This document shows positions 19,421-21,488 of a stretch of 64,000 nucleotides of DNA, piece after piece. Below the pieces are notes generated by a model, which worked only from the letters and a program-made list of their open reading frames with translations, had not been told where the DNA came from and ran no database searches. Numbering within the stretch: the stretch's first letter is position 1; each line of letters begins with the position of its first letter. The stretch is from [Flavobacterium] thermophilum (GTDB lineage Bacteria > Bacillota > Bacilli > Bacillales > Anoxybacillaceae): NCBI GenBank assembly GCA_900450595.1, contig UGGS01000001.1, positions 434,001-498,000 of the forward strand. The letters are read 5' to 3'. A program made the translations under genes and the position numbers.

Positions 19421-19709
19421 GTGAACCAAGATCGTCAAGCTGCATTGGAGCAGGCATTAAAACAAATTGAACGACAGTTTGGCAAGGGGGCCATCATGAA
19501 GCTCGGCGAGCAAGTCGACCGCAAAGTGTCGGTCGTGCCGAGCGGTTCGCTGGCGCTTGACATCGCGTTAGGCGTCGGCGGCTATCCGCGTGGGCGGATT
19601 GTGGAAATTTACGGCCCGGAATCGTCCGGGAAAACGACCGTTGCCCTTCACGCGATCGCGGAAGTGCAAAAGCGGGGCGGGCAAGCAGCTTTCATCGACG
19701 CAGAGCACG
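19421..19709 (+). CDS. recA: RecA recombinase, exon 1
   Basis: Codons 1-96 plus the first base of codon 97. Translation starts at GTG 19421 behind AAGGAGGAG. This exon carries the N-terminal helix ([20 protein letters not shown]), Walker A GPESSGKT and the strand ending FIDAEH. At 19710 the frame enters an intron and would stop at TGA 19724 after GATCC. Joined to 20734-21488 it gives 347 residues with an unbroken AEHALDP motif, the normal length for a Bacillus RecA. RecA drives homologous recombination and LexA cleavage, so correct splicing should be needed for DNA repair. Confidence 0.95.
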
Positions 19710-20733
19710 GTGCGACCTGTTGCTGACTGAAGTATGGCGGAAACGCCGTGCGAAAAGTCAGCGGGACTGAGCATGAGTAGGTCCTAACTGCATCACCGAG
19801 AGCTCGGTGAAAATCCGAGACGGGAATGAAGGTTGGCATTCCCGCCCTAATACCCCGACGTGCGGTCATGGTGCGCAACATGGCTGTACGAAGCTCGGAG
19901 AGGACGGCGAAAAGCAGACCTGAGAAGCGGTTAGCGAAGTAGCCGGGGGTCCATAAAGCTCCTATGGCTAGAGAACGCATAGCGTTGGAACGAACCACCG
20001 GAAGTACGGCTCGTAAGGCGTGGGGCGCCGAAAAAAGAAGGCGCTCACCTCCTAAGTGAGGTTCAGCCCTGGATGAGGTATTCGTGTTTGCCGAGTCTGG
20101 ATTGATCCCGTAGAGGATCTTTGCCTTGAGCCCTCCAACCATGGGCAGAAAGGCGGCTGACGGGTCAGAGGTGGAGCCTAAGGGAGCATGCAAGGATAGG
20201 TGATGCGGTACAGGTGAACCACCCCAGCGGATGCCAAGGGATGCGCATCCCGATGCCGCTAAGCAGGAGGAAATGACTGCTGAAGGGGTGGGGCAGCAGC
20301 CCGTAGTAGTGATGAAGCAGGGTAACTCCTGCGGAGCGAAGGGGCATAGTCGAGTACCCTAGGTTACTAACCCAGACAATGATTAGGAAGCCGTGAGGAA
20401 ATCCGTAAGGGTTTCGGTGAGCAAAACTGACTAAAAACGTGTATGGTACAAATCCGCTAGAAAGGATTTGATACTATCAACCAAACGTTTCAAGAACTAA
20501 TCATTCCTAGGTCGGAGCAGGAATTCCGCGACCTACAAGACAAGATGTACGCCATTACACAATAAGTAAACTCGAGGAATACAGAAAGTGCGTACACTAG
20601 TAAAGTCTAGAGCGGATTAGTAACCGGGGTACTCGATGGAACGCCGTGTGCGGGGAAACTCGCACGCACGGTGTGAAGCGGGGGAAAATAGCCCCTCCGG
20701 GTAATGCCGAGGGTGACTATTACCTATCGCTAT
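19710..20733 (+). mobile_element. Group II intron without maturase ORF, inserted in recA
   Basis: About 1,024 bases. The 5' end GTGCGACC fits the GUGYG rule. Domain V is clear at 20642-20673: stem CGCCGTG with CACGGTG, a two-base bulge (20665-20666), upper stem TGCGGG with CTCGCA, and a GAAA loop (20655-20658). A domain VI-like stem follows (GGTAAT with ATTACC, 20701-20724) with A20716 as a possible branch point. No reverse transcriptase or maturase reading frame exists inside, unlike full-length elements of about 2-2.5 kb, so splicing probably uses a maturase encoded elsewhere. The 3' end is set by RecA conservation; an in-frame alternative at 20727 exists. I recall published work on a recA group II intron in G. 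kaustophilus. Confidence 0.92.
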
Positions 20734-21488
20734 CGCTCGACCCCATCTATGCACAAAAATTAGGGGTCAATATCGATGAATTGCTGCTTTCCCAGCCTGA
20801 CACGGGCGAGCAGGCGCTCGAAATCGCGGAAGCGCTCGTGCGAAGCGGCGCGGTCGATATTATCGTCATCGACTCGGTGGCGGCGCTTGTGCCGAAAGCG
20901 GAAATTGAAGGGGAGATGGGCGACGCCCATGTCGGCTTGCAAGCGCGGCTTATGTCCCAGGCGCTTCGCAAGCTGTCCGGCGCCATTAACAAATCGAAAA
21001 CGATCGCCATCTTCATCAACCAAATTCGCGAAAAAGTCGGCGTCATGTTCGGCAATCCCGAGACAACGCCGGGCGGGCGGGCGCTCAAGTTTTACGCTTC
21101 CGTCCGCCTAGAGGTTCGTCGCGCCGAGCAAATCAAGCAAGGCAATGATATGGTCGGCAACAAGACGAAAATCAAAGTCGTCAAAAACAAAGTCGCGCCG
21201 CCGTTTAAAACGGCTGACGTCGACATTATGTACGGCGAGGGCATTTCCCGCGAAGGGGAAATCATCGATATGGCGTCTGAACTTGACATTGTGCAAAAAA
21301 GCGGCTCATGGTATTCGTACAAAGACGAACGGCTCGGCCAAGGGCGGGAGAATGCAAAACAATTTTTGAAAGAAAACCCGCATATCGCCGAAGAAATCGC
21401 CCGCGCCATCCGCAAACATTACGGCATCGATGATGGCGAAGCAGGCGGCGAACCGATGCAAGACGAATTTGGGCTGCTTGAGGAATAA
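20734..21488 (+). CDS. recA: RecA recombinase, exon 2
   Basis: Completes codon 97 (G plus CG gives Ala) and continues [26 protein letters not shown]. It holds Walker [22 protein letters not shown], loop L1/L2 residues ([42 protein letters not shown]) and the acidic C-terminus. On its own it has no start codon with a ribosome binding site, so it is expressed only from spliced mRNA. The 755 bases plus exon 1 make 348 codons including the stop. Confidence 0.95.

Follow-up and report, generated by a model that had tools for sequence, protein, structure and literature searches.

A group II intron in the recA gene of Geobacillus kaustophilus was described in 2005 (Chee & Takami, Gene 363:211, as cited in PMC4424553 and PMC3522654) and is reported to be active (PMC3522654). 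The preliminary description of the DNA considered here had pointed to this precedent, and the citing papers bear it out. According to PMC3919590, most group II introns of bacteria need their own IEP in vivo; in a survey of representative bacterial genomes, 281 of 2,381 such introns had none (PMC8919778). In Clostridium tetani, the intron C.te.I1 is described as being spliced in vivo, with no IEP-related sequence in the sequenced genome (PMC3919590). A 2015 review knows no other ORF-less bacterial intron whose genome is without a related IEP, and places the 5' splice site of C.te.I1 upstream of the usual GUGYG (PMC4424553).

The intron analysed in this work lies within a 64-kb window (the whole stretch of DNA that was examined). 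Like the G. kaustophilus intron, as described in those papers, it is a group II intron inside a Geobacillus recA. It lacks an IEP, and searches of its genome gave no maturase. Like C.te.I1, as that intron is characterized in the sources above, it is ORF-less, and no IEP-related gene was found elsewhere in the assembled genome. However, C.te.I1 is located among surface-layer genes, undergoes alternative splicing, and has several DV/DVI motifs (PMC3919590), whereas the window intron is in recA and begins at GTGCG. Plant organelles, too, have ORF-less group II introns that are splicing-only and lie in housekeeping genes. The closest relatives are full-length introns at the same recA site in four other genomes of the genus (G026, G024, G023, and G028). 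These carry an RT/maturase in domain IV, of which the window copy retains two stumps only. A literature search by title and start of abstract, with subscription papers mostly outside it, gave nothing further on maturase-less recA introns. What is added to the 2005 recA intron, as cited, is the missing maturase and the recurrence of that state. A second case beside C.te.I1, located in a Geobacillus gene central to DNA repair and with near-identical IEP-bearing relatives as matched controls, would open to direct test the long-standing question of what a bacterium needs for group II splicing once the maturase is gone. We consider it probable that the intron is an intact ribozyme whose IEP has been deleted and that it splices to give full-length RecA, most likely by RNA alone and with general helpers at most.

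A group II intron within recA

The preliminary description had recA broken after codon 96 by an intron, and the borders it gave are correct to the base (Table 1). The insertion point, at 19709/19710, falls inside the AEHA motif of RecA. The intron runs from GTGCGACC at the 5' end to CGCTAT at the 3' end, and thus bears the group II end signature of 5' GTGCG (GUGYG) and 3' AT (AY). Both exons are open. When they are joined, the junction reads ...GAGCACG/CGCTCGACC... (the slash marks the join), and the 348 codons, including the stop, encode an ordinary RecA in which ...FIDAEHALDP... spans the junction.

Table 1. Features of the interrupted recA gene, in window coordinates
Feature	Coordinates	Strand	Details
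recA exon 1	19421..19709	+	289 nt = 96 codons + 1 nt; GTG start at 19421; PF00154 positions 2-92
IBS1 (AGCACG)	19704..19709	+	last six exon bases; exon side of 5' splice site
ORF-less group II intron	19710..20733	+	1024 nt; 100% identical in G029
Domains I-III	19710..20349	+	RF02004; covariation in 12 introns; 3' limit approximate
EBS1 (CGTGTT)	20083..20088	+	domain I terminal loop; intron position 374
Domain IV, IEP gene deleted	20350..20634	+	alignment with full-length relatives; limits approximate
IEP N-terminus stump	20461..20562	+	34 codons, then TAA; 33/34 residues as in G026 frame start
IEP C-terminus stump	20559..20597	+	last 13 residues, different frame; 11/13 identical to residues 620-632, tblastn E 0.008
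Domain V	20641..20674	+	RF00029, fold; GAAA loop, 2-nt bulge, CGC triad 20642-20644
Domain VI	20677..20731	+	fold, RF00029; predicted branch-point A20726
recA exon 2	20734..21488	+	PF00154 positions 91-262

A second intact recA, whose presence beside an unused copy here the preliminary description had taken as grounds for abandoning its reading, was sought in the genome with the RecA profile PF00154 and not found; recA is single, and a third, weak RecA match falls under the family cut-off. That the intron belongs to a multi-copy family here was likewise rejected, since RF00029 matched once genome-wide and no further copies of the intron DNA were found.

Structure of the intron RNA

The covariance-model search that the preliminary description had suggested was run, and two Rfam models matched above their gathering scores: RF02004 (D1-D4) at 19807-19957, with 57.7 bits (E 1.1e-9, gathering score 34.5), and RF00029 (DV/DVI) at 20639-20733, with 56.7 bits (E 1.7e-8, gathering score 40). 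At gathering score the window has no other Rfam match. The RF00029 match and the predicted fold recover both the domain V with a two-base bulge and GAAA loop and the domain VI-like stem that had been noted earlier. The domain V triad, read by eye, is CGC, which is given as a usual one (PMC12350094). In the domain VI fold A20726, the eighth base from the 3' end of the intron, is unpaired. As to subclass (IIB, with an IEP of class B), this bulged A and the RF02004 match are hints only.

Pairing between intron and exon is also preserved. The scan for partners of IBS1 took in those starting at intron positions 201-480, and the only one with 6 bp is CGTGTT. Of the 17 introns found at this recA site (see below), 16 were tested (G169 was left out), and all 16 have a full 6-bp pairing of IBS1 with a CGTGYT hexamer in the EBS1 region; in 4 of these 16, other 6-bp partners are present in the scanned stretch as well. 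Another candidate for EBS1, the CGTGCG near intron position 150, was dropped, since it is part of a conserved helix.

A consensus fold of D1-D3 was derived from 12 of the 17 site introns, without G169 and the near copies G022, G024, G026, and G029. It contains 160 pairs, with 97.5% of cells paired and both sides changed in 79 of the 160. Neither the 97.5% pairing nor the 79 double-sided pairs was reached by any of 500 shuffles (0/500 for each). Sliding the partners lowers pairing to 35-42%, a comparison that favours the original structure, which comes from the same alignment, and that involves 12 related introns. The number of further pair types is less distinctive, being equalled in 16 of 500 shuffles. 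By these measures the intron RNA is conserved rather than decayed, and the predicted group II ribozyme core is structurally intact. The intron had earlier been called a degenerate element; this holds for the protein part, where the IEP has been deleted, but not for the RNA, which matches that of the IEP-bearing G026 and G024 base for base in D1-D3 (0/640 differences) and in DV-DVI (0/99).

Deletion of the IEP

An intron is present at the same recA site in 8 of 14 genomes of the genus. In four of them (G023, G024, G026, and G028) the intron is complete, with an IEP of 632-640 aa in domain IV that gives an RVT_1 match above the family cut-off; the G026 IEP scores 319.5 bits with TIGR04416. Each of the four genomes has one copy of this cognate IEP, at the recA intron. 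The preliminary description had envisaged a full-length relative with the same domain V and an encoded maturase. Such relatives, with the same or near-same domain V, exist in these four genomes, which belong to other species, though not in the window's own.

Over two aligned pieces, the window intron is 86-100% identical to the four full-length introns, and it equals that of G026 over 850 nt at its start and 166 nt at its end. Of the RT/maturase IEP that marks a mobile group II intron, only the stumps of 34 and 13 codons remain. They are in different frames, and a stop codon lies just past the deletion joint. As the earlier reading had it, no RT frame is present within the 1,024 nt, whether sought among open frames, with RVT_1, or with an IEP. 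Because the relatives carry the full intron with its IEP, the window allele is taken to have arisen by IEP deletion; this comparison shows that a recA-homing intron lost its IEP through a deletion within domain IV.

The same deletion junction occurs in three genomes of different species: the window's genome (G000), G022, and G029 (G. zalihae). The intron of G029 has 0/1024 differences from that of G000, and the intron of G022 differs at 3/1024. In addition, G022 has a 331-nt insertion (L070), which contains palindromes, inside domain IV of its ORF-less intron; it is perhaps a small transposable element. In G020 the IEP has been lost with endpoints other than those of G000.

Loss of the IEP at the same site in other genomes

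Introns at the codon-97 site were also sought outside the genus. The genome_contigs collection (84,980 species, each with one genome) was scanned for an exact pattern; the scan, which may omit records close to the window's genome, gave 14 loci. Ten of these hold RecA, two of them being Geobacillus genomes already counted; L025, L027, L033, and L038 were dropped because they lack a RecA match. The order was searched in a selection of 397 genomes from a larger group, with one best RecA E-value for each among the matches listed. Seventeen of the genomes with an interrupted recA were re-examined, and regions were taken from 8 genomes, 7 of them among those 17.

Together, the genus genomes, the pattern loci, and G169 from the order search give 17 introns at this site. 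An IEP frame with RT is present in 10 (G023, G024, G026, G028, L026, L030, L031, L035, L037, and G169); in L031 the RT match extends past the 577-aa frame, and the C-terminal part is out of frame. The other 7 have no intact IEP. They are those of G000, G029, G022, and G020; a 909-nt intron in a Thermoactinomycetaceae MAG (L032); an 810-nt intron in Streptohalobacillus salinus (L036); and an intron with a fragmented IEP in Cytobacillus sp. (L029). The 7 of 17 found here may be set beside the 281 of 2,381 in the survey cited above, a difference that carries no statistic since the 17 are not independent. The 7 IEP-less introns have five kinds of deletion endpoint, with L032 and L036 less sure because the IEP trace is weak or gone, and these are read as at least five separate losses of the IEP.

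The searches gave no RT or maturase in G000 and G022, but the other 5 genomes of the 7 hold at least one. The genomes of G029, G020, L032, and L029 have RVT_1 matches, and Streptohalobacillus has a maturase with a degenerate RT domain. G029 encodes an RT of 424 aa and, in its second recA intron, an IEP of 667 aa. G020 encodes two 424-aa RTs together with a lone maturase-domain frame, a 194-aa frame (L098:707-1288, + strand) with a PF08388 match (E 5.6e-15) and no RT domain in the Pfam scan.

Conservation of recA and age of the allele

Between G000 and G022, the joined recA genes have 18 synonymous and no amino-acid differences over 348 codons; between G000 and G029, there are 20 synonymous differences and one amino-acid change over 346 codons. 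The conserved joined RecA argues for a working protein, and a RecA that apparently works would point in turn to splicing.

The age of the ORF-less allele is a separate matter. The intron and the flanking exon are near-identical across otherwise diverged species, which suggests that the allele may be young and that it, or its IEP-bearing parent, spread recently by homing or recombination; recA conservation may in part be older than the loss of the IEP. It is quite possible, if somewhat short of probable, that the ORF-less allele is very recent and transient, that it was spread by homologous recombination or homing, and that it splices just well enough. This is consistent with the intron differences of 0/1024 and 3/1024 for G029 and G022, set against their 20 and 18 synonymous recA differences, and with the exon block at cds 172-533, in which G000 is identical to G026 and G024 (0/362) and to G029 (0/360 aligned) and the intronless G027 differs at 13/362. 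However, G022, which has the common deletion, differs from G000 at 6/362 in this block, one deletion junction is common to three genomes of different species, and deletions with other endpoints recur in G020, the Thermoactinomycetaceae MAG, Streptohalobacillus, and Cytobacillus. A transient allele would say little about stable life without a maturase, and it is compatible with the explanation that we prefer, an intact ribozyme that yields full-length RecA.

Search for a substitute maturase

RecA had been proposed to depend on a maturase supplied in trans, a proposal that found no support in the window's genome (3.73 Mb in 5 contigs, stated to be 100% complete and 1.73% contaminated). The RVT_1 profile (PF00078) has zero matches in it, and the 632-aa IEP of G026 used as query found only the stump and an HNH region. 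Because PF00078 missed the RT-degenerate maturase of Streptohalobacillus, it was rejected as sole proof that no maturase is present, and the search was repeated with a profile of 13 diverse IEPs that includes a maturase with a degenerate RT domain. In the window's genome this profile matched the stump and two further proteins only. A related IEP elsewhere in the genome, as an intron served in trans would have, was thus not found in the five-contig assembly of G000. In G022 (2 contigs) the same searches gave the stump and an HNH protein only, and no maturase.

The two weak maturase-like matches in G000 were set aside, since Pfam assigns one to RRXRR+HNH and the other to HNH. The window's genome encodes a 424-aa RRXRR+HNH protein at L097:404-1675 (+ strand), which looks IscB-like.

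An assembly of DNA in five contigs may miss sequence at the breaks, where the gaps themselves are unseen. The 3-kb contig ends (both ends of C1 and C2 and the start of C3) gave no Rfam match in any of the five stretches, and the end of C1 and the start of C2 have a 98.8% repeat in common.

It is unlikely, in our estimate, that a trans-acting maturase does exist and was missed because it lies in an assembly gap, was on a lost plasmid, or is too diverged for these searches. Maturases usually bind sequence around the IEP start in domain IV, and domain IV here retains about 285 nt including that sequence. The failure of PF00078 with the Streptohalobacillus maturase and the RTs of two relatives with IEP-less introns (G029 and G020) also fit a missed maturase. 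On the other hand, the 13-member profile and the cognate IEP find none in either G000 or G022, which are separate assemblies (5 and 2 contigs), and in each of the four IEP-bearing relatives the cognate IEP is single-copy, at the recA intron.

Proposed route to RecA

The intron with its IEP deleted but its RNA core kept thus remains our preferred reading. A recA-homing ancestor underwent a deletion in domain IV that took away the RT/maturase and left the RNA core. As its anatomy suggests, excision from the recA pre-mRNA would be guided by IBS1-EBS1 pairing. Attack by the predicted branch-point A20726, followed by exon ligation, would then give full-length RecA, as the conserved joined frame also leads one to expect. 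Since the assembled genome yielded no maturase, the RNA would most likely suffice for splicing, aided at most by general host factors, for example RNA helicases or chaperones. Counting against RNA-only splicing are the stated need of most bacterial group II introns for an IEP in vivo and the presence of some RT or maturase in the 5 of 7 genomes with IEP-less introns.

That the intron is not usefully spliced, so that the strain is a recA mutant or uses split RecA halves, is very improbable: both exons are open, the core helices are kept, and the changes between G000 and G022 are 18 synonymous and 0 amino-acid. Moreover, exon 1 stops after the first base of codon 97, and ribosomes on the unspliced RNA would read on into the intron.

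A broader and rather doubtful extension of the preferred reading is that Bacillales recA repeatedly turns homing introns into splicing-only ones and that, in an RT-free Geobacillus lineage, RecA is made through protein-independent splicing or with generic helpers. If this were true, free-living bacteria would have a counterpart of the splicing-only introns of organelles, and the rate of splicing, through temperature and Mg2+, could set the supply of RecA.

Other interruptions of recA

Further insertions were seen in recA. A second group II intron site lies after residue 123, in L075 (G029) and L076 (G019). The recA of G. zalihae (G029) therefore consists of three exons and two group II introns, and the residue-123 intron is the one that keeps the 667-aa IEP. 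G019 has only the residue-123 site, occupied by a 1.4-kb intron that has lost the middle of its IEP.

In the recA of Streptohalobacillus salinus (the L036 record), Rfam recognizes group II domains at two places where they enclose no IEP, one of them the codon-97 site. Near residue 205 of this RecA an intron encodes a 567-aa IEP (L092:1410-3110, - strand). This protein has no RVT_1 match, and YKER, read by eye, replaces the YxDD motif; it has a maturase domain (PF01348, E 6.6e-10) and scores 130 bits with TIGR04416, which is below the cut-off. It is apparently a MatK-like, RT-dead bacterial maturase.

Many Bacillales recA genes have short inserts near RecA profile positions 60 and 199; those scanned (L090, L093, L094, and L095) gave no Rfam match at gathering score. 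Group I introns are known in Bacillus recA. In G079, G359, and G418, both RecA pieces have the same open-frame length, as if they were one frame.
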